The notes under the pieces: model-generated
The model's database searches: none
What the model was told of the DNA's origin: nothing
The model's input: only the letters and a program-made list of their open reading frames with translations
Virus record (IMG/VR): IMGVR_UViG_3300024432_000052
Coordinates: 1 to 29,976 of that record
From: a virus
Reading direction: 5' to 3' (one strand)
Length of the DNA: 29,976 bases
Program-made: the position numbers and the translations under genes
Shown here: positions 1,889 to 29,976 of the stretch, piece by piece
Layout: the number at the start of each line of letters is the position of its first letter
Numbering within the stretch: the stretch's first letter is position 1

Positions 1889-4687
1889 TTATATACTATC
1901 GAAGATGATGCTTTCGTCGTCATCCCAAATGGGTTCATCGTCATCGTCATAGATGGTTCTCAGTTCCGCCGGGGTAGGGTTGTCAGTTGATGTAATTAAT
2001 TGATGCTTGTTAATTTCCCTCTGGTTTTGGGCCAGAAAATCCTCGGTGATGGGCACATACGGCCCGGCTTCTACCCGGCACTTGACATACCCGCCACCTA
2101 GAAATTGCATAGCTACCCGTTGGATAATGAAATCATCGGCGGACAATCCCAGCGCCGTATCGGTAGCGGCAATCTTCGTACCGGGAAATAACCCCGGTTC
2201 ATAGGTCGTAAAGCTGATTTCTTTCAATTCGCTCCGGTTACCAAACTCGGCCATCGCCCGTGCGTGAGCATCGTTTTCACTGGTAATGGTATCATCGTAG
2301 AGGGTATCGACCAACACTACCCCTGTTGTGTCCTGGTCTACTTCGTCATCAATTGTAGCTTTGATGCGTCGCTTAAATCGCCCTACAACCCGGAAAGAAC
2401 GCTTGAGTAAAGAGGGTGCGGTCTGCCATTCCAACCAATGATCTTCAGCATCATACAAAACTGTCGCTGGTGAGAATGATCCTGTGTCTCTATCGGCTAC
2501 GGTTTGTGCCGTCCAAATGGGAGTAGCGTCAATGTAAATGTTTTTATAGATTACCGGAAAGGTGCTGCCAGAAGCCGGGTAATAGGTTTCTTGTAGATCG
2601 AAGTGGGTGTTTTGACCGTCGGCGGGGTATTCAAAATCAACATCCTCGTAGGTGGTACCCCCAATGACAATCAGGGAATTGATGCTATCGGCCCCCGACA
2701 CGTCAAATGATAGGTCTTCCATGTATTCATCCATGTTGCCGATGTCAATATCGAAGTCGGCAAGATCGGCGTCGGCGTTCCAGTTTAATTTTTGCGTCAC
2801 GATATATGATGTGCTACCGTCGGCGACACCATGCCACTCTGCCCCCGCCGAATTACCATCAAAATAGGGCCCTGGTGCTTGGGGAACAATATATAATTCC
2901 ATGCTAACATCGTCAATATTGCCGTCGAAATCAGTAGTCGGTATAAATTCTAAATCCACACCATCGGATGTGATTGTTTCGCTATAAGTATTATCAGTAC
3001 TCCTGGCCGTACCCAGATTACCTATTTTTGGGGTAATTGTCCCGGCGGTTCGGTTGGTAATAGTAAAAGTGATCCGATAATCTTCGCCAACATCCTCGGC
3101 TTCAATTATGTCATCTTGGGAAATCGGCTCAATTGATCCTGCCGTATGCGTAGCTACCCCATCGGCAATAGCCCAGTTGGCCCCCTTTGTCCAATCGCTA
3201 TCGGCAGCAAACCCGCCGTTCGTCACAATATCAGGGCCATAAGTCTCAGTGGTTGGTGGTATCCCCTCAACCTCTTTAATCGACACGTCGTCAATATCAC
3301 CGTCAAATAAATCTGATGGAATAAATACCAAGTCTTCCTCGCCCGCTTTGATAACTTCCGTGAACGTATCATTGGTATTTTGTTCGGTGCCGTTCTCGCC
3401 GATTATCGGTCTAATGGTTCCGGCAGTGCGATTAGATATGGTATAAGTCAACGAATAATTTTTACCAATAGTCAAAAACCCATCTTGCGATAAGGAGAAC
3501 GTATTCCCTGGTGTATGCGAAGCTACTCCGGCAGCAATGGCCCAACCCGCGCCAACATTCCAGGATGCAGGATTGCTCATATCACCATCGGTTACTAAAT
3601 CGGCGCCTAATTCGGTTTCACCACTGTATACGATCTCTACCATGCATTTATCAAATGACAAGGTATAAGCACCAGAGGCACGGACGGCGTGGATTGTAAA
3701 TTCAATATGCCCACTATCTGGAAATTGACTTTCATCACTTAAGTCCCAAGATTTGCCCCACGTTGTCCAGCTTGTTCCAAAGCCCGTTACCAAATTCGAT
3801 TCACCGCCAAAATATGTCCCACTTTCGTCATAAGTTCTGATATGAACAGAAACGGCGACATTAGCACCAGCATCTATCTTCATCCGAAAGCTAAGTGTTA
3901 CCCATGCGCCCTGAGAGCCGCGATGGAAGGGGATAGTATGTGTGCCATCTGGGGCCGTGCGCCCTACTCCTATATATGTATGGTCAGATACTACAATGCG
4001 TTGTGACGTAACTTGGTATCCGCCCCCCGATTCTCCAAAGCCTGCCCCCCATGAACCGCTACCAGGGGCCCATGCCCCTATTGCCCCATTAGGATCGTCA
4101 TTATAATAACTAGCGTCGTTGGTCAGGTTAGGATTTAAGATGAAATTCGTTCGTAAATCATCGACCGGCGGTAATCGCCAATTTGCCCCGACCCGTTGCG
4201 CCAATTCATACATCGCTTCTAGGATATTAGGGTTGCGAAACTCTTGGGTGATGTCTTCTGTGCTCAGCCCGGTGACGTTAGTAGAAAAATCAAATAGACC
4301 GGAGAGGTCGGGCACACCGTCGGTAAGCAAACTACCCAGTATTCCATCATCAGTGTCAATGTACACAGCATCTATATGGCTCTTTTGTAACCGCACTTTC
4401 AAGGATGAACAATTAATTGACATATCTAATTTAACGCCACGTTTCTTTTTGCTGTAATCGGTTATGTAGCCCCAGAAGTAGGTAATATCCGCTTTCAGAT
4501 CGATCACATAGATAATATCCCACCGATCTATGGAAAAATCTTCGGCGTCCTCAACAACCATATCGCAGGTGTCTATGCGCTGTTCGCTTTCCAGGTTGAT
4601 CCGAAGGCTTTCTTTAGGCACATGAGAAGTAACGTCCGCCCCGTTGACGACGATTTGCAGATGGGTTAACTGTGTTGGTGTCGGCAT
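1889..4687 (-). CDS. Tail hub / tail-tip protein with inserted beta-sandwich modules
   Basis: A 932-residue protein directly after the tape measure gene, sharing a TAATG stop-start overlap with it. Residues 1-180 (NGADVTSHV start, alternating beta strands, then an ILEAMYELAQRVGANWRL segment) and residues about 640-890 look like the two parts of a phage tail hub, the gp27/gpJ-like baseplate plug. Between them sit three probable beta-sandwich modules: about 185-355, 361-472 and 485-597. The last two are clear duplicates of each other; both carry WAIA.GVA.HT, NRTAGTI.P.IG and FDG.IDDVS motifs. Such modules often bind carbohydrate. The C-terminus ends in an Asp-rich stretch (YDDDDEPIWDDDES). Hub identity comes from gene order and fold-like features; glycan binding is inference. 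Confidence 0.7.
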   Translation of the reverse strand: MPTPTQLTHLQIVVNGADVTSHVPKESLRINLESEQRIDTCDMVVEDAEDFSIDRWDIIYVIDLKADITYFWGYITDYSKKKRGVKLDMSINCSSLKVRLQKSHIDAVYIDTDDGILGSLLTDGVPDLSGLFDFSTNVTGLSTEDITQEFRNPNILEAMYELAQRVGANWRLPPVDDLRTNFILNPNLTNDASYYNDDPNGAIGAWAPGSGSWGAGFGESGGGYQVTSQRIVVSDHTYIGVGRTAPDGTHTIPFHRGSQGAWVTLSFRMKIDAGANVAVSVHIRTYDESGTYFGGESNLVTGFGTSWTTWGKSWDLSDESQFPDSGHIEFTIHAVRASGAYTLSFDKCMVEIVYSGETELGADLVTDGDMSNPASWNVGAGWAIAAGVASHTPGNTFSLSQDGFLTIGKNYSLTYTISNRTAGTIRPIIGENGTEQNTNDTFTEVIKAGEEDLVFIPSDLFDGDIDDVSIKEVEGIPPTTETYGPDIVTNGGFAADSDWTKGANWAIADGVATHTAGSIEPISQDDIIEAEDVGEDYRITFTITNRTAGTITPKIGNLGTARSTDNTYSETITSDGVDLEFIPTTDFDGNIDDVSMELYIVPQAPGPYFDGNSAGAEWHGVADGSTSYIVTQKLNWNADADLADFDIDIGNMDEYMEDLSFDVSGADSINSLIVIGGTTYEDVDFEYPADGQNTHFDLQETYYPASGSTFPVIYKNIYIDATPIWTAQTVADRDTGSFSPATVLYDAEDHWLEWQTAPSLLKRSFRVVGRFKRRIKATIDDEVDQDTTGVVLVDTLYDDTITSENDAHARAMAEFGNRSELKEISFTTYEPGLFPGTKIAATDTALGLSADDFIIQRVAMQFLGGGYVKCRVEAGPYVPITEDFLAQNQREINKHQLITSTDNPTPAELRTIYDDDDEPIWDDDESIIFDSI

Positions 4688-7167
4688 TAGACATTACTCC
4701 GGGCAGAACCGCCACGTGTGCGCACTGTATTCTTGGCAATTAATCTCGACACTTCCCGCACGTGTTCCGCCGGGGTTCCTGGAGGCAAATGGAAATGGTT
4801 TTCTTGATGTTGGACAATTACCGCTCCGCCGCCCCGTCCTGTCGTCGGTGCGGTAATTCCTTGTGCCAATCCGGTGGTAATATCTTGACCTATCCCGGCC
4901 ATGACTTTCGAGGCGGAGGCGATACCAAGCGATTGCATCACACCTTGAATTAAGCTGTCACCGATAGTTACTCCTTGCTGCAAGGCTTGAGCACGAATAG
5001 CTTGCATGGCCTGAATAGACGCGGCGGCCTCTTGTCCCAGACGTTGCAGATGCGTACTCACTTGTCCGGTTTTGAGTACGTTAAGTAAGTCGCCGATCCC
5101 ACGCTTACCCTGTTGCCTCACTGCGGCAATAGGACTGCCGATAGACCGAGTAAGTCCTCCGGCTGTAGATGTGAGGGCGCGGATAATTGAGCTTGTCATA
5201 CCACCGCCGCCACGTCCCCTACCGCCAGCTTGCTGCATAACAGTATTGATTTGTTTGTTGGCCTGATTCACCCCAGCGATAGCCGCGTCTGCATAACCCT
5301 GTGCGAAACTGGCTCCAGCATTGTGACCGATCTCAGCCATGACTTTTGAGGACGACGATATACCGAGGACATCCTTCACGGCATTAACAGCTTTAGATGC
5401 CATGTCTATCGCCGCTTTTACCATTTTAACGATGAAATCTTTGACAGTTTCGATAATAGCATTTAATGACGCCTTGACCAATTCGAATATCGCCTTTGGC
5501 ACACTTGCCGCAAGATCGAAAACATTGCCAACTACCGCTTTGATTAATTCCCATAACCCCTCGAAAAAGTTGGTGAAATTATTCATTAAATCAGGCAATA
5601 ATTTTCCAATTCGCTCCCCTACGATTTCTACCCCTCGTTTGAAATCCTCCCAAATGCCCTGTACCTTTTCCCAACCTTTTGCCATACGATCATGAATAAA
5701 TTCAAACATGTCACCCAAATTTATCCAATTCTGTATGAATTTCTCAATGATAGAATTGAAAAATGCCGTCGCCTTATCCCAGTTATTGGCTAACCACCAG
5801 ATGGCAACCCCTAACGCAACCCCGGCGGCGACAACGGCGGCCCAGGGGAGAATAACAGCCCATGACGCGGCGGCAACTGCCGAAAGACCTCCAGTTAGAA
5901 TACCAAACCCCGCGGATAATCCTGGAATAAGTCCCATAGTAAAACTGAAGATTGTAGTAAGCGCTCCCCATGACATCATGATCTTGCCCACAATCCAAAG
6001 CACCGGCCCGGCGGCGGCCAACAATGCCAGAAAAGCAACTGCGATTTGCTGAATAGGCCCCGGCAAATTTGTAAATGCGTTGACGGCTTTAGTTAAAAAA
6101 ACTACCAACGGTTGGAGAATGTTCTCCACGAATGGGCCTATAACCACAATAGCTAGTGTCTGTAAACTACCCTTGAGTTGGTTTACGGCTCCGCTAAAAC
6201 TCTCCATTTGTTTGGCGGCGACTTCGTTAGCCGTAGCAGCTTCAACCATCTTTTCGTTCATTTCGGAAATACCACCAGCAGCAATAAGGGCGGCTAATCC
6301 CTTTTTGCCAAACTGTCCAGCAAGGTCTTGGATAATCAATAACTTTTCGGCTTGGGACATTCCTTCCATGCCCCTAACAATATTTTTAATAATATCGTCT
6401 AAGGGCAAAATGTTGCCTTGCGCATCCTTCCACGAAGTACCCAACATATTCCATGCTTCTATGGCCTTCGGCGTTTGGCGTGTTATATTCGAAATTATTG
6501 AACTAAGTTGAGTTCCTGCGTCACTACCTTTGATACCTGCCTCAGCCATAACAGCCAACGCCGCCGCCGTATCACGGGCATTGACCCCAAACACATTCGC
6601 ATTAACACCCGCGTTCACAAAAGCATCAGCCATGTCCTGAATTGTAGCTGATGATGAACCAGATGCTTGGGTAAGAATATTTACAACTTCGGTAGAATCT
6701 TCAACCCCTAACTGAAATTGATTCATAATATCCGTAACAATATCGGCAGCGTTACCAAGTCTCAGTGTGCCCGCAGCCGCAAGGTCTAATACATCAGTAA
6801 CAACTAAAAGCGATTCCTCAACGGTTGAGCCGGACGTAACTAATTCTAGCATTGCCTCCGCCGCTTGCGTGGCAGAAAACGCGGTATCGCGCCCCATTTC
6901 AATGGCCGCTTTTCGTACTGTTTCCATCTCTTTTGCGGTAGCGCCAGTACGCGCCTCGAAGTTAGTCAAGGTTTTGTCGAAGTCGGCATAGGTCTTTACG
7001 GCCACCGCGCCGATAGCAAGAATAGGCAACGTAAGACTACGGGTCATGGATTTACCCACGCGCTGCATAGTTTTACCCATGCTATCGGCGCTTACACCGA
7101 TTTTTTTCATAGCGCCAGATGCCTGGTCTATAGCTTTGATAATGATCTTCAGTGTTTCGGTTGCCAT
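4687..7167 (-). CDS. Tape measure protein (TP901 family)
   Basis: An 826-residue protein that sets tail length and is probably ejected with the DNA. Residues about 80-330 match the TP901-type core, with the typical run TAFSATQAAEAMLELVTSG and the DMADAFVNAGVNANV segment. Residues about 372-460 form a long hydrophobic stretch with several possible membrane helices, usual in this family. Two copies of a SKVMAEIG-like motif (near residues 607 and 753), each followed by a small-residue segment, also recur in many tape measures. The C-terminus holds a Gly-rich tract and an HQENHFHLPPG motif. The start codon overlaps the stop of the frameshifted chaperone frame as TAATG. By the usual 1.5 angstrom per residue rule the tail would be about 120 nm. 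Confidence 0.93.
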   Translation of the reverse strand: MATETLKIIIKAIDQASGAMKKIGVSADSMGKTMQRVGKSMTRSLTLPILAIGAVAVKTYADFDKTLTNFEARTGATAKEMETVRKAAIEMGRDTAFSATQAAEAMLELVTSGSTVEESLLVVTDVLDLAAAGTLRLGNAADIVTDIMNQFQLGVEDSTEVVNILTQASGSSSATIQDMADAFVNAGVNANVFGVNARDTAAALAVMAEAGIKGSDAGTQLSSIISNITRQTPKAIEAWNMLGTSWKDAQGNILPLDDIIKNIVRGMEGMSQAEKLLIIQDLAGQFGKKGLAALIAAGGISEMNEKMVEAATANEVAAKQMESFSGAVNQLKGSLQTLAIVVIGPFVENILQPLVVFLTKAVNAFTNLPGPIQQIAVAFLALLAAAGPVLWIVGKIMMSWGALTTIFSFTMGLIPGLSAGFGILTGGLSAVAAASWAVILPWAAVVAAGVALGVAIWWLANNWDKATAFFNSIIEKFIQNWINLGDMFEFIHDRMAKGWEKVQGIWEDFKRGVEIVGERIGKLLPDLMNNFTNFFEGLWELIKAVVGNVFDLAASVPKAIFELVKASLNAIIETVKDFIVKMVKAAIDMASKAVNAVKDVLGISSSSKVMAEIGHNAGASFAQGYADAAIAGVNQANKQINTVMQQAGGRGRGGGGMTSSIIRALTSTAGGLTRSIGSPIAAVRQQGKRGIGDLLNVLKTGQVSTHLQRLGQEAAASIQAMQAIRAQALQQGVTIGDSLIQGVMQSLGIASASKVMAGIGQDITTGLAQGITAPTTGRGGGAVIVQHQENHFHLPPGTPAEHVREVSRLIAKNTVRTRGGSARSNV

Positions 7168-7797
7168 TACTTCCTCGTTAGATTTGCTTTACGCTCAGCC
7201 TCTTTCTGCCCTATCCCCTCCCCCCAGAAATCCAAGAATAGCCGCTCGATAAACCAGGCGGGCTGTGATCGGAAGTCCTGGATTTTCCATCGCATTTTAC
7301 GACATAGATGGGTGACAGACATTCCCTCTGGGAGAGAAGAGTTTGTTTTATAGGCGACTTCAATCTGCGTCCGGAAATTCTTCGTCGGTTTCAGGATTGA
7401 GCCTGTCCAACACCTCCAGTATAAAGTCGGCGTCTTTCACACGCAGCTTCCCCAGATTGTCATTTGTTATAGGCAATGTCTTGCCATTTTTGCCTCGGAA
7501 TGTCCATGAGACAATCCCCATTGCCAGAGTTGAAACACGCAACAAACTGAAATTGGTATCCCGAACTTTGAAGTTTTGTCGCCTTTTTCCCCGGCGGTTA
7601 CTGGGCAATTCAGCCTCTTGCCGCAAGCCCAATTTCACCAACTCTTGCGCTTCGTTAAACGTTATCTCACGAACCGTAACCGTCATCCATTCAGGCCACC
7701 AATCGGCCTGAATAGTTTCAGTATCCAGATCAAACGGATTGTACTCTGCTGGCCTACTGCTTTCGGTAGCTTGCTCATCTTTGGCACTCACAATCAT
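7167..7797 (-). CDS. Tail assembly chaperone, +1 frameshifted long form (GT-like)
   Basis: The long product of the tail chaperone gene, read only if ribosomes shift frame. The first 141 codons are those of the short form. At GAA-UUU-CCG (minus strand, 7380-7372) a +1 slip lets the Phe tRNA move from UUU to UUC. Reading then continues as RTQIEVAYKTN and on to a TAA at 7169-7167 that overlaps the tape measure ATG. The extension is 68 residues, giving about 209 in total. It looks like real protein (basic, amphipathic, with a QPAWFIERLFLDFWGEG segment). An internal ATG at 7322 exists, but its Shine-Dalgarno tract abuts it with no spacing. The layout is that of lambda G/GT, although +1 is less common than -1. 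Confidence 0.7.
7360..7797 (-). CDS. Tail assembly chaperone, short form (G-like)
   Basis: A 145-residue protein between the major tail protein and the tape measure gene, the standard place for the chaperone that holds the tape measure protein during tail tube assembly. It has a compact N-terminal acidic part, then a TVREITFNEAQELVKLGLRQEAE segment in the style of gpG-like proteins, and ends in DEEFPDAD. The stop lies about 190 bases before the tape measure ATG, and that gap is filled by an open +1 frame described separately. The start is 7 bases after the stop of the major tail protein gene. Confidence 0.75.
   Translation of the reverse strand: MIVSAKDEQATESSRPAEYNPFDLDTETIQADWWPEWMTVTVREITFNEAQELVKLGLRQEAELPSNRRGKRRQNFKVRDTNFSLLRVSTLAMGIVSWTFRGKNGKTLPITNDNLGKLRVKDADFILEVLDRLNPETDEEFPDAD
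7372..7380 (-). other. Candidate +1 ribosomal frameshift site
   Basis: The minus strand reads GAA TTT CCG G. After pairing at UUU, a Phe tRNA can re-pair one base downstream at UUC, and the next codon becomes CGG. Influenza PA-X uses a comparable UUU-C slip. The +1 frame is open from just after a TGA about 60 bases upstream, so the site must lie in that interval. This is the only obviously slippery +1 heptamer I see there. A -2 shift would reach the same frame and cannot be excluded. Confidence 0.5.
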
Positions 7798-7803
7798 TCT
7801 CCT

Positions 7804-8847
7804 CTAGGCGCTTGGATAGTCATCGACATCGTTATACAGCTTCACACTGAAATCCTTTGATCCAGTAGCGTCATAGACGCTTTGGGCGCTGACAGTTTCC
7901 GTTACTGAACCATCTTCGTCGCCCGGCTCTGTCCAATCAAAATACCGGTAAGCACCGTCCAGGTAGATATAGGGAATATTAGCCTGCCCACTATCTATTT
8001 CTGTCTGGCCCAATATGGCAATGCGCAAGAAGGTCGTTGTACGAGCATTGTACTTATCCTTTTCCAGTTCGGAAGTAGCTTCCCGGTTATAGATCAATTC
8101 CAACTCAACGGCTTTCTTATCTTCATTCAGGCCGTAGAAATAGAGCGAACCATCGGCCCCAAAGCGAGGGGTAAATTGGGTTTCTAATGTCCAGGTGAAG
8201 CCCCGGAGCATACCTTTTTTCTCAGTAGTCCCCCAATTAGCCACACTCGAATCGACATAAAACTCTACCTGGTTAGAAACGGCATATTCTACCGCCACCA
8301 CCGACAATGCCCCTGTTATAGAAGTTTCTGTCAACTGCCGTCCGGTAATATCCCACGTAACCATCACCGGCTCGTTGGCCGCTCCGGTAATAGTCAGTGT
8401 CCGGGTAAACACAAACTCGGTTTCCAAGTTTTGGATACTGTCACCAAATTCCAGCGTGAATGTGTCAATCCCGTCGGTGATGTCCGGCGTGTTGGCAGTG
8501 GTTAGCCCCGGTTCAAATGTCCGCAAAAAAGCGAGGGGTTGGTTGCTTGCATCCGGCTGTGTCCGAGTGATATTCCCCCGAATGGAGTTGGAAAATAGCC
8601 ATAGGGCATGGCGAAAATTCAACGCCATTTCAATACTACCTTCAACCAACGTGCCTACGACAAAATCGTCGGCCAGATTACGCGACAGGCTATTCCTATC
8701 CTGCTCTAATTGGTGAATGACTTTATCGCCATAGGTGATATTGGCAGTAGCTCCCGTTAGAATTTCCTCGGCTGCCTCGGCGCTGCCGGGCGAATCCTCA
8801 ACGTTACTGATTTGAATGTGTTCAAATGCTTTTAGTCCATAGGCCAT
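7804..8847 (-). CDS. Major tail protein (tail tube)
   Basis: A 347-residue beta-rich protein placed between the neck/terminator genes and the tail chaperone. That is where siphoviruses encode the tube subunit that polymerises around the tape measure. It lacks Cys and is rich in Thr, aromatic residues and acidic residues. It has long alternating strands (for example LETEFVFTRTLTITG and RGFTWTLETQFTPRFG) typical of tail tube proteins. Its start codon follows the stop of the zinc-finger gene with a one-base overlap. I assign the function from position, size and composition; no short motif defines this family. Confidence 0.82.
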   Translation of the reverse strand: MAYGLKAFEHIQISNVEDSPGSAEAAEEILTGATANITYGDKVIHQLEQDRNSLSRNLADDFVVGTLVEGSIEMALNFRHALWLFSNSIRGNITRTQPDASNQPLAFLRTFEPGLTTANTPDITDGIDTFTLEFGDSIQNLETEFVFTRTLTITGAANEPVMVTWDITGRQLTETSITGALSVVAVEYAVSNQVEFYVDSSVANWGTTEKKGMLRGFTWTLETQFTPRFGADGSLYFYGLNEDKKAVELELIYNREATSELEKDKYNARTTTFLRIAILGQTEIDSGQANIPYIYLDGAYRYFDWTEPGDEDGSVTETVSAQSVYDATGSKDFSVKLYNDVDDYPSA

Positions 8848-22112: not shown

Positions 22113-23609
22113 CTCTCTGTAAGGGTTTTCGAACCATTCGGCGGTAAGTAATTCAGCGAACGGTGCATAGAGCGCCAGCAATACCGCGTCGGCGCTATCG
22201 GTAGAACGCCCTATCCTAGATCGTATGTCGTCTTTACTCTCCACCTTGATTAGTCCCCGGCTTGTGCGCGTATATTTAGGTGCTGTCAAATCACCGGTAA
22301 GTAAATCATCCGGTGGCAACGCAATAGGATTAGGATTACGTGGGTCAAGTAACTCTCGGCCATAACACCACCACAGCGCCGAACGTAGATTGATAAACCC
22401 CTGCTTCTCAGTTTCATCCATTAAGGTTGTCGCAGAGGCTACGTTTACCGGAATGGAATTGTACTTCAACTGTGCCAGACGGTCATGCACTCCGGCTCCT
22501 ACTCCGATAACATCCACTGCAATCGGTGTGTCTCTATCGTATCCCAGTTGTTCTACAACCTGATCTACCGTTTCCATCGTATCTTGCTTAGTGGCGTAGA
22601 GTAGTGGTTGGATTACATGACCTATTAGATGAGCGATGCAGGTCTGGTCTTCACCTTTATAGGCCGGGTCTACCCCATAGGATTGCTTACCTACGCCCTT
22701 GCCGTCACAAGCGTACCAACGCTCATTAGCCGCTTCAACCCATGATAAGGGAATTAACGTCTCTTCGCTTTCATCGGCGAAGTTACCCTCGACACGGTTC
22801 TGGTAGACCCCGGACTTTTCACCCCATTGCACCTTGCGTTTATTTGCCCAATCACGGGATATACGCCCGGCGGCAATAGCCTCTTCCAGAGTAATATGGC
22901 GTGTCCACCAATCCTCATAACCAGGACGTTTGCGATGAATGTCGTAGAACCTGCCAGAAGTTAGGCCGGGCGTGCTGATCGCCAGGGCATAGGCTTGACT
23001 GCCGGTATCATCCCCGGCTGATGAGAACGCGCCCTCGGCTGCATCCCACGTTTTGTTGTTGATTGCTTTGGCTTCGTCAAACACATAGAGCAGCGTGTTC
23101 GCATGGGCGCCCTCAATAGAGGAAGGATCACTGCTTGCCAGTGCGAACGCTTCACGACCACCAGGCAGTTTAAACGTTTGGTCTAATAGTTCTTTACCCC
23201 GGCGAACGGATAACCCCAATTTGCGCCAGTCTGCTTTACTTGCCCACTTGTGGATTTCTGGCCAGAGGAACTTGGTCAGTTGCCGCCATACACTGGCAGT
23301 AGTTGGCACCTTCACATCGTCTGTGAATGCTGTCATACCCCACAGCACAACCCACGCTGCCAATGCGGTCTTCCCCGCGCCATGTGGGGAGCGAACGCCT
23401 ACGCGCTTGTGGATCACTAGCGCTTGGAGAATCTCTTCCTGATAAGGCGCTATTGTCTCAACGCCCAGCACGTCCTGGGCAAAGGCGACAATCCCGTCGG
23501 GTGTGGTATAGTCAATAAAGTCTGGAGGGTCAAGCCCATCACGAAGCCCCGACAGTAATGAGTTTTCCAATACCGACGCTGATTCTTGCCAGGGTATCAC
23601 GGTCATCAA
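22101..23609 (-). CDS. terL: Terminase large subunit
   Basis: A 502-residue packaging motor. The ATPase domain shows Walker A SPHGAGKT (residues 74-81), Walker B LLYVFDEA (173-180, with DE catalytic pair) and a coupling STP motif near 212. The nuclease domain shows the RNase H-like acidic residues: D in GVDPAYKG (about 314), D in AVDVIGVG (about 366), and STDSADA (about 469-475). The length is typical. It overlaps the small terminase by 71 bases. It ends in YREYRG, and its stop is two bases before the next ATG. This is the firmest identification in the window. Confidence 0.97.
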   Translation of the reverse strand: MMTVIPWQESASVLENSLLSGLRDGLDPPDFIDYTTPDGIVAFAQDVLGVETIAPYQEEILQALVIHKRVGVRSPHGAGKTALAAWVVLWGMTAFTDDVKVPTTASVWRQLTKFLWPEIHKWASKADWRKLGLSVRRGKELLDQTFKLPGGREAFALASSDPSSIEGAHANTLLYVFDEAKAINNKTWDAAEGAFSSAGDDTGSQAYALAISTPGLTSGRFYDIHRKRPGYEDWWTRHITLEEAIAAGRISRDWANKRKVQWGEKSGVYQNRVEGNFADESEETLIPLSWVEAANERWYACDGKGVGKQSYGVDPAYKGEDQTCIAHLIGHVIQPLLYATKQDTMETVDQVVEQLGYDRDTPIAVDVIGVGAGVHDRLAQLKYNSIPVNVASATTLMDETEKQGFINLRSALWWCYGRELLDPRNPNPIALPPDDLLTGDLTAPKYTRTSRGLIKVESKDDIRSRIGRSTDSADAVLLALYAPFAELLTAEWFENPYREYRG

Positions 23610-24204
23610 CCTGTTCCTTTATAATACTAACCACGGCAGCCATGAGTAGCATAGCTCGTTCGGATGTTATCATCTGTTGCATTTCCACAAGGCGTTTACG
23701 CTCACTCTCTACAAGCCTGCGGCGCTTTTCGATATTACTAGTTATTTCGCTCCATACGGCGTACTGCCGCACGCCCGCCTTGATAAGGTTATCTAGCTCA
23801 GTTAGGCATAAGGCCATGCGCGCACCGTCTTTAGCGCTGTAGGCCATTTGGAAATCCCGGTAAACAACACGTACTGCTTGCCAGATACGACCAGACTCGC
23901 CAGTATCTATTTGCTTGATGAGTTCAATTGTTCGCGTATCGATAAGGGCAATCTCGGAGCGAAGATTCAGAAGCTCCGCGTCGGTCTGGGCTTCCTCATA
24001 CTTTCCGGCCAGTCGGGTAGGGAGATAAGAGCTATAGCGGCCATGCGTTGTATGTGGGGAATTGAGTCCACGCGGGGTCTTGCCTCCATGAACATGGCAT
24101 ACTTCATATCCATTCACCGGACTATTCCGACATCGCTTTCCAGTTGTTTTTGCTTTTGACTTACACCGTCCATGAGGTTTCCCATTATCCATGAGGTTTC
24201 CCAT
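23539..24204 (-). CDS. Terminase small subunit-like protein with HGGKT zinc motif
   Basis: A 221-residue protein directly before the large terminase gene, thus the probable DNA-recognition subunit. Residues about 13-45 form a Cys/His cluster (CKSKAKTTGKRCRN then YEVCHVHGGKTPRG), a metal-binding motif of the HGGxT type seen in some small terminase-like phage proteins. The rest is helical (ELLNLRSEIALIDTRTIELI, MQQMITSERAMLLMAAVVSII). The first 12 residues come from the 19-bp tandem repeats. ATG 24204 is the A of an upstream TAATG; ATG 24192 is an alternative in the same frame. Confidence 0.75.
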   Translation of the reverse strand: MGNLMDNGKPHGRCKSKAKTTGKRCRNSPVNGYEVCHVHGGKTPRGLNSPHTTHGRYSSYLPTRLAGKYEEAQTDAELLNLRSEIALIDTRTIELIKQIDTGESGRIWQAVRVVYRDFQMAYSAKDGARMALCLTELDNLIKAGVRQYAVWSEITSNIEKRRRLVESERKRLVEMQQMITSERAMLLMAAVVSIIKEQVDDRDTLARISVGIGKLITVGAS

Positions 24205-24274
24205 TATCCATGAGGTTTCCCATTATCCATGAGGTTTCCCATTATCCATGAGGTTTCCCATTATCCATGAGGTT
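24171..24274. repeat. 19-bp tandem repeat, five copies plus degenerate sixth, over the small terminase start
   Basis: Five exact copies of CATGAGGTTTCCCATTATC (24171, 24190, 24209, 24228, 24247), followed by a shorter degenerate copy from 24266. On the coding strand each unit contains TAATG and CTCATG. The repeats run from the stop of the upstream 70-residue gene into the first codons of the small terminase. The unit length is not a multiple of three, so each copy changes frame. No spacers are present, so this is not a CRISPR. Confidence 0.97.
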
Positions 24275-24452
24275 ATCCATATGGTTCTTCCACAATTTCG
24301 CGCCATTGCTCTTCATCCTTCACAAGTTCATTCAAAACCTGCGATAGATTATCAATCGCGCTACCATGTTTCTTCCGATATTCTTTCGCCAAACGAATAG
24401 CTTGTTTTTGCTTACGGCGCAAAGACGGTGTCAGTTTAGTTGGTCTAGGCAT
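24273..24452 (-). CDS. Small basic protein, DNA-binding candidate
   Basis: A 59-residue protein starting at ATG 24452, which overlaps the upstream stop by 8 bases. An earlier start at 24485 lies inside that gene and is less likely. The sequence is rich in Arg and Lys (MPRPTKLTPSLRRKQKQAIRL) and then has an AIDNLSQVLNELVKDEEQWREIVEE helix. The first part suggests a helix-turn-helix or AT-hook-like DNA contact. It lies right before the terminase pair and ends in the repeat array, so it may be part of packaging control. Not recognised. Confidence 0.6.
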   Translation of the reverse strand: MPRPTKLTPSLRRKQKQAIRLAKEYRKKHGSAIDNLSQVLNELVKDEEQWREIVEEPYG

Positions 24453-27169: not shown

Positions 27170-27352
27170 TTATCCTTTCTCTCCCCACCCAGCACAGTCC
27201 ATAATCAATTCCATTGCATCGCCTTGGGTTAAATGGGCATCGATAACACATATTGATGTAGTACCATCCTCTAGCAAAACAATTCTCAGCACAGCATAAT
27301 AGAGTACATCGTTTACCATATACCGGAATAATTTAAATTGAGGGTCACTCAT
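27170..27352 (-). CDS. Small hypothetical protein
   Basis: A 60-residue protein with a beta-rich sequence (FKLFRYMVNDVLYYAVLRIVLL) and a C-terminal helix (GDAMELIMDCAGWGEKG). ATG 27352 overlaps the stop of the zinc-ribbon gene by 4 bases, so it is translated with it. Unknown function. Confidence 0.6.
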   Translation of the reverse strand: MSDPQFKLFRYMVNDVLYYAVLRIVLLEDGTTSICVIDAHLTQGDAMELIMDCAGWGEKG

Positions 27353-27708
27353 CCTTTATCCCTTCGCCTATACCCTCTAGGCTTCGCCCCGATCCGTTCC
27401 TCATAATGCACCCTGCCCCGTCCATTTTTGCACCATTTGCACTGTGAATGCAATCCTTGTTTGCCATCCTGGTTACGGGAAAAGAATGCTGAGGTAGGGG
27501 GGAACCATTCACCGCAAGCACCACAGAATTTCAAGGTCTCTTGAAGAAGCTGTCCATCGCTATCATGCGATGTGCGCTTTTTCATCCACCGGGGCGCGAA
27601 ATATCGACTCTCTTCGAGGATGCAACCAGGAATATATTTTTTAATCATAAGGAAGACGGCGGCCCACTCGGTGAGACGCAGCTTATAGGGGATCATCTCT
27701 TCTTTCAT
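27349..27708 (-). CDS. Zinc-ribbon regulator-like protein, leaderless
   Basis: About 119 residues from ATG 27708 (a GTG start 6 bases upstream is possible). The C-terminal 60 residues hold CGACGEWFPPTSAFF and a GLHSQCKWC pair, a Zn ribbon with the P-T-x-FF insertion common in phage DNA-binding and HNH-type proteins. Then comes a very basic tail (RGRVHYEERIGAKPRGYRRRDKG). The N-terminal half (YKLRLTEWAAVFLMIKKYIPG) is helical. It has no Shine-Dalgarno site; a TATACT box sits 6 bases before the ATG, so the message seems to start at the ATG. A DNA-binding regulatory role is inferred. Confidence 0.7.
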   Translation of the reverse strand: MKEEMIPYKLRLTEWAAVFLMIKKYIPGCILEESRYFAPRWMKKRTSHDSDGQLLQETLKFCGACGEWFPPTSAFFSRNQDGKQGLHSQCKWCKNGRGRVHYEERIGAKPRGYRRRDKG

Positions 27709-27714
27709 GCCCAC

Positions 27715-27738: not shown

Positions 27739-27767
27739 TTTACAAATCGATCTATCTGTGAGACAAT
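27739..27767 (+). promoter_or_regulatory. Early promoter copy 1
   Basis: TTTACA (27739-27744), a 17-base spacer, then GACAAT (27762-27767) with an upstream TGA that gives an extended -10. The 17 bases TCTGTGAGACAATGTAG (27755-27771) are identical in copy 2. It reads into the NUMOD4-like gene. Confidence 0.6.
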
Positions 27768-27789
27768 GTAGTCATATCCGGGAGGCCAT

Positions 27790-28035
27790 ATGAAACCACC
27801 AAATCATGCTAAAATAATCGGCGTCTATAGGGGATACGATTTCCCTGATTATGCCATCGCGCCAGATAGCACAATCTACAGCCGTCGACAAAATCGTTAT
27901 GACTGGGACTCGATAACTCCCTATTTCCCCTCCCCAGGACACAAACAGGTCTATGTGCGGCTCTATCATAACGATGGTCATATCACAGTAAGGGTTCAGC
28001 GCCTATTAGCCTTTGTTAATATGAGAACCCCATGA
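27790..28035 (+). CDS. NUMOD4-like domain protein, possible homing endonuclease fragment
   Basis: An 81-residue protein with a GGGAGG ribosome site. The pattern YAIAPDSTIYSRRQNRYDW, then ITPYFPSPGHKQVYVRLYHNDG and VRVQRLLAFVNMRTP resembles the NUMOD4 / HNH-endonuclease N-terminal motif (YxVSxxGxVxS...GYxxVxL...HRLVAxAF). In those enzymes it is followed by an HNH nuclease. Here the protein stops immediately after the motif, so no nuclease domain is present. It could be a remnant of a homing enzyme or a stand-alone DNA-binding domain reused as a regulator. Confidence 0.6.
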   Translation: MKPPNHAKIIGVYRGYDFPDYAIAPDSTIYSRRQNRYDWDSITPYFPSPGHKQVYVRLYHNDGHITVRVQRLLAFVNMRTP

Positions 28036-28053: not shown

Positions 28054-28082
28054 TTGACATTCTATTGGTTCTGTGAGACAAT
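28054..28082 (+). promoter_or_regulatory. Early promoter copy 2
   Basis: Consensus TTGACA (28054-28059), a 17-base spacer, and GACAAT (28077-28082) inside the shared 17-mer (28070-28086). It drives the coiled-coil gene, which begins 34 bases downstream of the -10 box with a TAGGAG ribosome site. Confidence 0.65.
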
Positions 28083-28115
28083 GTAGATAGAGAAAAACAC
28101 ATAGGAGTAAGCCGA

Positions 28116-28790
28116 ATGACCAACCAAGCCCCAAATACCCAAGAAACAGAAAAACAAGACGAAGCCGCGCGAATCAGAGCAGAGATGATGGAAGCACGCG
28201 CCGCCGATAATCTAGGACTTGCGAATGAGTTGGCACGCCAACTACGAGTACTAGAGGGCAATTACGATGAGTGGAAGCGCGCCAAATTACGCAAAGCGCG
28301 AATTGCTAAACGAAAGATAGAAGAGGAAAAAGCTAAAGAGCGGAAAGCTGAAGAACAACGGATGATCGAAGCCGGATACGTCCAGGTTACCACAGCCGAA
28401 TATGAGAAAGAGTGGGATGGTGAAGGCGGCGAAATGATTACTCGCACAGAATGGATGAAAAAGGACAACGAGGAAAATAACATCTATCAGAAGGCCGGGG
28501 CCGATGCCTACACAATCGAGCGCCTAACAGTTGTCAATGGCATAGTCACCGAAGCACAGTTACATGCCCTATTTACAGAGATTGAGGGTAACGACAGTTT
28601 ACCCCACTACATCGGGCTAACCGTCGCCGAGATCGAAGCACTCGGCTTTACTACCGGCTATGATCCCGACATCATTCGCATGTGCAACCAATATCAAACC
28701 GGCTCAACTTATCATGGTCTAGGAGTCGGGCATGGCAACGCAAATGTACCAGCGCAAGTTATCAAGGTCGATACAGGACGCAAGGTTTAA
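28116..28790 (+). CDS. Coiled-coil hypothetical protein
   Basis: A 224-residue protein. Residues about 10-90 are a charged coiled coil rich in Ala, Glu, Arg and Lys (AARIRAEMMEARAADNLGLA; KRKIEEEKAKERKAEEQRM). Residues about 90-224 appear globular (VQVTTAEYEKEWDG, LTVAEIEALGFTTGYDPDIIRM, HGLGVGHGNANVPAQV). It is the longest of the plus-strand genes and has its own promoter. No family is recognised. Long coiled coils at this position may reflect an early host-interaction protein. Confidence 0.75.
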   Translation: MTNQAPNTQETEKQDEAARIRAEMMEARAADNLGLANELARQLRVLEGNYDEWKRAKLRKARIAKRKIEEEKAKERKAEEQRMIEAGYVQVTTAEYEKEWDGEGGEMITRTEWMKKDNEENNIYQKAGADAYTIERLTVVNGIVTEAQLHALFTEIEGNDSLPHYIGLTVAEIEALGFTTGYDPDIIRMCNQYQTGSTYHGLGVGHGNANVPAQVIKVDTGRKV

Positions 28791-28799
28791 CCACCACCA

Positions 28800-28852
28800 A
28801 CCCTGAGCGAAGAGCGTCCCCGGCGTCGCGCCGGGGCAGGGTCTTGAGCGAA
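28800..28852 (+). repeat. Intergenic nested-hairpin element, copy 1
   Basis: ACCCTG (28800-28805) pairs with CAGGGT (28837-28842). Inside is a perfect 8-bp hairpin CCCCGGCG-TCG-CGCCGGGG (28818-28836). Outside are direct repeats TGAGCGAA (28804-28811 and 28845-28852). No T-tract follows, so it is not a normal terminator. It fills the gap before the 74-residue gene. Confidence 0.75.
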
Positions 28853-28877
28853 CGCACATAACAATAGAGCGAATGAA

Positions 28878-29102
28878 ATGACAGAAAAAACCTTCACCAT
28901 AAACGGCACCGAAATTATTTTATCTGGTTATCAAGCCGATGGAATTATTTTCATGGATGCTGCGCACAAAACGCAAGAAGAACTCATCATAATCCAGGCG
29001 GCACTTGAACAACTCGGTTGCACCGTAAAGTTACAACCGGTGATGGGATCAGATGGACAACCCATGTGCTGGAACTTAAACGCGGAACAACTAATCAGCT
29101 AA
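28878..29102 (+). CDS. Small hypothetical protein
   Basis: A 74-residue protein with a beta-alpha-beta form (TFTINGTEIILSGYQADGIIF, QEELIIIQAALEQLG, CTVKLQPVMGSDG). It has only a weak ribosome site (AGAG), and an extra ATG five bases upstream is out of frame. It follows element copy 1. Unknown function. Confidence 0.6.
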   Translation: MTEKTFTINGTEIILSGYQADGIIFMDAAHKTQEELIIIQAALEQLGCTVKLQPVMGSDGQPMCWNLNAEQLIS

Positions 29103-29109
29103 TCATAAC

Positions 29110-29161
29110 ACCCTGGCCAGAGCACACCCCGGTGCAACTCCGGGGCAGGATCTTGAGCAGC
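29110..29161 (+). repeat. Intergenic nested-hairpin element, copy 2
   Basis: ACCCTG (29110-29115) and CAGGAT (29146-29151), with the inner 19-mer CCCCGGTGCAACTCCGGGG (29127-29145) of the same length as in copies 1 and 3. Six G-C pairs are kept. It is the most diverged copy; the outer stem has one mismatch. It ends next to an alternative upstream ATG of the following gene. Confidence 0.65.
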
Positions 29162-29192
29162 AATGTGGCCGCGTAGGATAGGAGAAAACAGA

Positions 29193-29426
29193 ATGACAAT
29201 AGCATCATATCCAAGACCAGGAAAGCTCAGTCCTAGTGGCGAAGAGGTGGGTCCTTGTCTTAACGAAAACTGTGGACATGATTATTGTGAGTATATCCGC
29301 ACACAGACAGCAATGCGCTGCAATCATTGCACAGAAGCACTTGGCTATGAGATCAACTTCTACAACATTGAGGGACATTTTGTCCATGCGGCCTGTTTTG
29401 AGGAATGGGCAGATTGCAGGGTTTAA
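29193..29426 (+). CDS. Small zinc-binding protein (treble-clef/LIM-like)
   Basis: A 77-residue protein starting at ATG 29193 with an AGGAG ribosome site (an in-frame ATG at 29163 is also possible but lies against the hairpin element). CLNENCGHDYC is followed by CNHC and then HFVHAACFEEW, giving a treble-clef-like zinc-binding arrangement similar to small phage proteins with C-x2-C...VH-x2-C. The function is unknown. It may block a host protein. Confidence 0.65.
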   Translation: MTIASYPRPGKLSPSGEEVGPCLNENCGHDYCEYIRTQTAMRCNHCTEALGYEINFYNIEGHFVHAACFEEWADCRV

Positions 29427-29433
29427 TCCCCCT

Positions 29434-29486
29434 ACCCTGAGCGAAGAGCGCTCCCGGTATCGCGCCGGGGCAGGGTCTTGATCGAA
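29434..29486 (+). repeat. Intergenic nested-hairpin element, copy 3
   Basis: ACCCTG (29434-29439) and CAGGGT (29471-29476) flank the inner 19-mer TCCCGGTATCGCGCCGGGG (29452-29470). Compared with copy 1, the first and seventh bases change C to T, which keeps pairing as G-U. The flank reads TGAGCGAA and TGATCGAA. It lies before the acidic protein gene. Confidence 0.75.
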
Positions 29487-29515: not shown

Positions 29516-29815
29516 ATGAACAAACCACTGAGCAAATACCAACGCAAGAACATGACCCAGGAAGAGATCAAAGAGTATGAGTCTGAATATGATGAGGATG
29601 GCTATAAACTCATCGACACCGAAGACTATTGCGGTTATGTCATCGAAACATGGGAACACCCCACCGACTCTGATCCCTATAAAGTCTGGAATGATTTTGA
29701 TGATCGTACTGATTGGGTCGATACGCTTGAGGAAGTAGCCCGATCTATTGAAATCACTAAAGGCGACATCGATGATGAAATCGCGTACTATGATGAAGAA
29801 GAAGAAACCGAATGA
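29516..29815 (+). CDS. Very acidic small protein, possible DNA mimic
   Basis: A 99-residue protein with about 33 acidic against 10 basic residues (for example EEIKEYESEYDEDGY, NDFDDRTDWVD, YYDEEEETE). Many small phage proteins of this charge mimic DNA to block restriction, repair or transcription proteins. The sequence alone does not tell which. A GGAG site precedes the start by 8 bases. Its stop overlaps the next ATG as ATGA. Confidence 0.65.
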   Translation: MNKPLSKYQRKNMTQEEIKEYESEYDEDGYKLIDTEDYCGYVIETWEHPTDSDPYKVWNDFDDRTDWVDTLEEVARSIEITKGDIDDEIAYYDEEEETE

Positions 29816-29976
29816 GTCAAGACAAACAAGCTGATGCAATCCTAACCGTACTGATCGGCAAACCTAAGCCGTTCCAGGTTACGTTAGGACAATTAAAGGA
29901 TACCCTGGAGCGCCTGCATTACAGCGCGTTCTGGTTGTACCCTCCATTATCAGCTTACCAATTTCGCCCCGACGGG
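29812..29976 (+). CDS. Partial hypothetical protein at window edge
   Basis: An open frame of 55 codons that runs off the right edge; the product starts MSQDKQADAILTVLIGKPKPF and continues in a helix rich in Leu, Lys and Glu (LGQLKDTLERLHY). The start codon overlaps the preceding stop (ATGA), so translation is coupled. Too little is visible to assign a function. Confidence 0.65.
   Translation, partial: MSQDKQADAILTVLIGKPKPFQVTLGQLKDTLERLHYSAFWLYPPLSAYQFRPDG

Follow-up and report, generated by a model that had tools for sequence, protein, structure and literature searches.

A repeated element in three successive early gene gaps of a phage contig, and type-II hammerhead ribozymes in corresponding gaps of its closest relative

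The sequence analyzed in this work is the IMG/VR record IMGVR_UViG_3300024432_000052, the full 29,976 bases of which are referred to here as the window; the record stops at position 29976, inside the early region. The right end of the window is formed by a rightward early operon, in which three copies of a small GC-rich element are found between the genes. The features of this region are as follows:

27739-27767, plus strand, promoter-like site before the gene at 27790-28035 (consensus match only)
27790-28035, plus strand, early gene following a promoter-like site; no element there
28054-28082, plus strand, promoter-like site TTGACA-17-GACAAT before the gene at 28116-28790 (consensus match only); no element there
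28116-28790, plus strand, early gene (224 aa), upstream of copy 1
28800-28847, plus strand, element copy 1: ACCCTG / linker with mini-hairpin GC-GAAGA-GC / CCCCGGCG-TCG-CGCCGGGG / CAGGGT / CTTGA
28878-29102, plus strand, early gene (74 aa, no assigned function), between copies 1 and 2
29110-29156, plus strand, element copy 2: ACCCTG / GC-CAGA-GC / CCCCGG-N7-CCGGGG / CAGGAT / CTTGA
29193-29426, plus strand, early gene (77 aa, Cys-rich, no assigned function), between copies 2 and 3
29434-29481, plus strand, element copy 3: ACCCTG / mini-hairpin AGCG-AAGAG-CGCT / TCCCGG-N7-CCGGGG / CAGGGT / CTTGA
29516-29815, plus strand, early gene (99 aa, acidic, no assigned function), after copy 3

The gene which comes after 29516-29815 overlaps it (ATGA) and runs off the end of the record, leaving neither a gap nor an element at that junction. 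For the gene following copy 2, the correct start is 29193 and not 29163. None of the early proteins produced an informative family match; the product of 28116-28790 has a weak PHROG tail-fibre match (E 0.0026), which probably reflects a coiled-coil. Peptide-pattern searches of IMG/VR identified no relatives of the proteins encoded by 28116-28790, 29193-29426 and 29516-29815, and for this reason the orthologous gaps could not be aligned. The two early promoter-like sites (27739-27775 and 28054-28092, both on the plus strand) have TCTGTGAGACAATGTAG in common, over and after the -10-like hexamer, which suggests a common promoter or operator sequence.

Three gaps in a row within the early operon are each occupied by a single element copy, always oriented as the genes are transcribed. 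From stop codon to ATG the gaps measure 87, 90 and 89 nt (copies 1, 2 and 3, respectively). The distance from the stop codon to the element is 9, 7 and 7 nt, and 35, 41 and 39 nt separate the end of its outer stem from the ATG that follows. Scanning the window for the pattern ACCCTG-N(25-40)-CAGGRT gave matches on the plus strand at 28800-28842, 29110-29151 and 29434-29476, with two further matches representing the reverse complements of copies 1 and 3. The chance expectation for this pattern was 0.09 matches in the whole window, and five matches were reached in no shuffle; scan and shuffles together confirm the original observation of three copies sharing the geometry ACCCTG...CAGGGT/CAGGAT-CTTGA, with the CTTGA directly 3' of the outer stem in all three. 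The claim that the copies are confined to gaps between plus-strand genes and absent at the two promoter-driven starts agrees with both the coordinates and the promoter scan. A covariance model of the three copies detected no fourth copy in the window, and no copy is present in its late-operon gaps of 56-192 nt. Divergence between copies reaches about 20%, copy 2 being the most diverged of the three and carrying a C-A mismatch in its outer stem. Copies 1 and 3 share 89% identity across 61 bp, and the genes flanking them have no detected relationship.

The alignment of the three copies comprises 50 columns, with 12 modelled pairs (24 paired columns) and 19 unpaired core columns. Just two of the 24 paired columns are variable, as against 14 of the 19 unpaired core columns (Fisher p = 1.5e-5, or 2.7e-4 when the conserved CTTGA tail is counted as unpaired), and the most variable part is the apical loop, where six of seven columns vary. 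Pairing is register-specific: 97% of cells pair as modelled, and shifting the partners by 1-3 columns lowers this to 33-56%. Among the 12 modelled pairs there is one change from C-G to U-G and one broken pair (C2-G42 to C-A, in copy 2), and none of these pairs is changed on both sides in any of the three copies. Where the inner stem of copy 1 has two extra pairs at its top, copy 3 has one wobble and one mismatch. The changes between the inner stems of copies 1 and 3 had been described as partly pairing-preserving; this is true of the C-G to U-G change, but the case is thin given one broken pair and no two-sided change. As there is no compensatory change, a single G-U and one broken pair, what is conserved is the sequence of the stems, and pairing is not proven; on the question, raised in the first-pass annotation, of whether sequence but not pairing is conserved, the stems are kept as sequence with compensatory changes at zero. 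The linker was said to be 11 or 12 bases long, which is correct for its length, but it is not plain single strand: a linker hairpin (GC-N4/5-GC) is present in the minimum-energy folds of all three copies, producing a predicted three-way junction in which this mini-hairpin joins the closing stem and the main hairpin. In total 12-14 pairs are predicted within the element, in two helices with the one-sided linker of 11-12 nt between them. Core fold energies lie below those of shuffles, though modestly, in copies 1 and 3 (z -2.7 and -2.1) and not in copy 2 (z -0.8), and with the flanks included the difference from shuffles is not significant. An RNA fold of the element is plausible from modelling, and covariation does not establish it.

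The distribution of the element was addressed by searching for further copies and known families. No Rfam family was at or above its gathering threshold for any copy, nor was any even suggestive, and the Rfam scan returned no ribozyme match for the three copies down to E 10. In IMG/VR a pattern of the exact structure had 0 matches and a looser pattern 60 single matches, of which few had a comparable hairpin and none was multi-copy, with covariance-model scores at chance level for a preselected set. The 85,000 bacterial and archaeal genomes of GTDB gave nine single chance-like matches with low covariance-model scores, none of them multi-copy, and blastn against phages (INPHARED) and plasmids (PLSDB) produced only matches of 24-38 bases with E > 0.1. 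The covariance-model search for more copies that had been recommended was run on about 160 contigs and produced only chance-like matches: over 80 terminase relatives the best match (L079, E 0.17) fell within coding sequence and had no inner hairpin, and no element copy was detected in 8 portal relatives. A lack of more copies in related phages, named as a refuting outcome in the first-pass annotation, is what these searches gave, but the pattern searches are insensitive to diverged copies, and as the searches require near-exact arms or contigs at hand, a diverged family could escape them. The element is real, repeated and orphan, and it has a well-defined place in the operon.

The closest relative of the window phage, identified by a portal search, is IMGVR_UViG_3300033480_000004 (L092; 46.8 kb), the portal of which is 58% identical; a capsid-profile search found the same single relative and no other. 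The two share synteny through the capsid and tail genes. The early operon of L092 extends from the equivalent place in the opposite direction, adjoining a homologue of the HNH-like gene of the window (27349-27714), and no homology links the early genes of one phage to those of the other. A covariance-model search of L092 found no element copy. Type-II hammerhead ribozymes were detected in two of its early gene gaps, and another in an unrelated terminase relative:

L092, 12906-12849, minus strand, type-II hammerhead ribozyme in the first early gene gap (28.2 bits)
L092, 12624-12563, minus strand, type-II hammerhead ribozyme in the second early gene gap (22.3 bits)
L069 (IMGVR_UViG_3300049846_002125), 3186-3245, plus strand, type-II hammerhead ribozyme (33.9 bits)

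The core of a type II hammerhead is composed of CUGANGA ... GAAA ... UH with three stems. All three scores are below the Rfam gathering score of 37 bits (RF02276), and the call in L092 is based on the intact cores (GAAA, GUC and CUGANGA in both), on there being two copies that resemble each other (0 of 500 shuffles as good) and on their position, each beginning 0-7 nt past a stop codon with the next start shortly downstream. After the next gene of L092 there is a gap with promoter-like sequence and no hammerhead, and the later genes mostly overlap. The L069 hammerhead, which likewise has the core, directly follows a stop codon and precedes the ribosome-binding site of the next gene. A role in processing long phage transcripts into mRNAs of gene length has been proposed for hammerheads found on the flanks of single genes, and cleavage by some phage hammerheads has been demonstrated both in vitro and in E. 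coli (Perreault et al., 2011; PMC3088659).

Other potentially structured sequences were noted in L092. A fluoride-riboswitch match at 4405-4482 on the plus strand (31.5 bits, gathering 34; E 2.5e-5) is antisense within a minus-strand ORF. Two long non-coding, GC-structured stretches of the early operon (8060-8395 and 7488-7678, minus strand) have no Rfam match, and one of these is located just upstream of an HNH-like gene (6822-7487).

Like type-II hammerheads (RF02276; PMC3088659), the element of the window is a small GC-rich fold with a predicted three-way junction, and it recurs from gap to gap along one operon, each time lying directly behind a stop codon and shortly ahead of the gene that comes next. 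Unlike them, it has no GAAA, no CUGANGA and no second large hairpin, and it has a 6-bp closing stem. A core-pattern search found no hammerhead core in the window and, judged from its sequence, the element is not a hammerhead. Comparison of the element with the L092 hammerheads revealed no significant sequence similarity, the best of nine comparisons giving p = 0.06; with no core, no Rfam ribozyme and no significant similarity, the functional link between the two is by position only. Other ribozyme classes were also considered. The cores of the hammerhead in any permutation, twister, twister-sister and pistol do not fit, in agreement with the Rfam scan, and in the case of an HDV-like topology parts of the linker could pair 3' of CTTGA in copies 1 and 2, but this pairing is not kept in copy 3 and Rfam gave no match.

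We tentatively propose, largely by analogy and with somewhat less than even confidence, that the element is a cis-acting RNA at early gene junctions which serves as an mRNA-processing and/or 5'-end-stability site. It would be transcribed within the polycistronic early mRNA and would fold at the gene junctions, where a cut at or near the structure would be made, probably by a host or phage RNase; alternatively, the structure may act by shielding the downstream message. The outcome would be an mRNA end of its own for each small early gene, with a stable fold 35-41 nt before the start codon, and the element and the L092 hammerheads may be functionally equivalent. The presence of hammerheads in the equivalent gaps of L092 lends support to this reading, and the processing or stability site suggested in the first-pass annotation is favored in this indirect way, through a link that is positional only. 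The fixed gap geometry, the sense orientation, the conservation of stems and CTTGA, and the register-specific pairing support processing; the zero compensatory changes, the modest fold energies, the sub-threshold hammerhead scores and the non-homologous early genes count against it. The broader claim of a cis-acting structured element is borne out by position, orientation and conservation confined to the stems and CTTGA. In the early genes of T7, RNase III processing sites are interrupted hairpins in successive gaps, upstream of the ribosome-binding sites. These resemble the element as hairpins in successive gaps of an early operon, but with 12-14 predicted pairs in two split helices the element would be a poorer double-strand substrate. 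It is extremely improbable that the element represents a new class of small self-cleaving or autonomous RNA, with a three-way junction, a 6-bp closing stem and a CUUGA tail, that replaced hammerheads in this lineage.

The stems and CTTGA are kept as sequence and not as mere pairing while the apical loop and linker vary, and this would also fit a phage or host protein which reads the GC-rich stem(s) and CUUGA in the nascent RNA and controls the translation or transcription of the downstream early genes, i.e., by operator-like repression or protein-dependent antitermination; the presence of copies at several genes of one operon fits a regulon. Conserved loops are, however, common in known phage RNA operators, whereas variation in the element is greatest in the apical loop (six of seven columns). 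No candidate binder was identified, and the early proteins lack informative family matches. We consider such a protein-binding hairpin rather unlikely. The high identity of copies 1 and 3 over 61 bp between genes with no detected relationship, their location exactly at module boundaries and the absence of compensatory changes could also be explained at the DNA level, by a recombination linker or a small mobile or REP-like repeat at gene-module boundaries with no RNA function. CCCTGAGCGAAG of copies 1 and 3 may resemble common bacterial palindromic repeats, and it is absent from copy 2. A passive linker would not be expected to show conservation confined to stems, nor does a DNA repeat account well for three copies in the same orientation at a near-equal distance from the stop codon, for the lack of copies elsewhere in the window, such as in the late-operon gaps, or for a set of 85,000 bacterial and archaeal genomes with only chance-like single matches; this explanation is unlikely. 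Inverted repeats that are particular to one lineage and occur at several early gene starts have their closest known precedent in the extended start-associated sequences (ESAS) of cluster K mycobacteriophages. In ESAS, a 4-13-bp spacer separates two half-sites of 17 bp, and these adjoin a 13-bp SAS (GGGATAGGAGCCC), which overlaps the ribosome-binding site and lies 3-7 bp away from the start codon; the variation among ESAS gives no support to hairpins in the RNA, and no function has been assigned to them (PMC3203893). Both the ESAS and the element are inverted repeats which have not been found outside their lineage and which, in a single orientation, precede several non-structural genes, but the element has two nested stems, lies 35-41 nt from the start and varies outside its stems, and the SAS is absent at the three starts downstream of the copies.

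With its strong GC hairpin, the stem of which has 6-8 bp, the element could act between genes as an attenuator, that is a weak or U-tract-less terminator lowering expression stepwise along the early operon. The terminator scan found no terminator-like site at the elements, and no T-run follows the hairpin, its place being taken by CTTGA; intrinsic terminators were rejected on these grounds, as the first-pass annotation had done for want of a T-tract. The hairpin is moreover nested in an outer stem and followed by the conserved CTTGA, neither of which a terminator needs, and attenuation is very unlikely. Through put RNA, RNA polymerase reads through terminators via the beta' zinc-binding domain. 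The element shares with it a cis-acting structured RNA in early phage transcripts and a predicted multi-stem fold, and the first-pass annotation had suggested an HK022 put-like role in antitermination, acting directly on RNA polymerase. In HK022, each early promoter has one put RNA downstream of it, formed by two long stem-loops and about 70-73 nt in length (PMC9378689). The element, by contrast, measures ~43 nt, has a nested architecture, recurs between genes and is missing from the promoter-proximal leaders; with size, architecture, copy number and position all different, the suggestion is not supported and is highly improbable. Mimicry of a CRISPR repeat, as a solitary repeat unit or RNA anti-CRISPR, is highly improbable: short GC hairpins in intergenic phage DNA would fit, but the match of copy 3 to CRISPR-DR10 (13.5 bits, gathering 39; E 8.2) is at chance level, the ~20% divergence of the copies is unlike mimics of one fixed repeat, and solitary CRISPR repeat units are typically single and adjoin their own promoter (PMC10651486).

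Should processing or 5'-end protection prove true, related phages would be able to fill one and the same gene-junction slot with different RNA devices, hammerheads in L092 and an unrelated fold in the window phage, and they would provide a simple test system for the purpose of intergenic phage hammerheads, a question which the literature leaves open. As a mere DNA linker the element would be of minor interest. The most useful new fact is the presence of hammerheads in the gaps of L092, and interest in the element itself is moderate since there are just three copies on one truncated contig with no covariation.

A repeat of a different kind was observed elsewhere in the window, where positions 24150-24299 contain ~7 head-to-tail copies of a 19-base unit (TCCATGAGGTTTCCCATTA on the plus strand). 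The array covers the start of the gene at 23539-24204 (minus strand), the product of which resembles proteins adjoining terminase in other contigs, and each unit has ATG codons on the minus strand, so that the start codon and frame are repeated.
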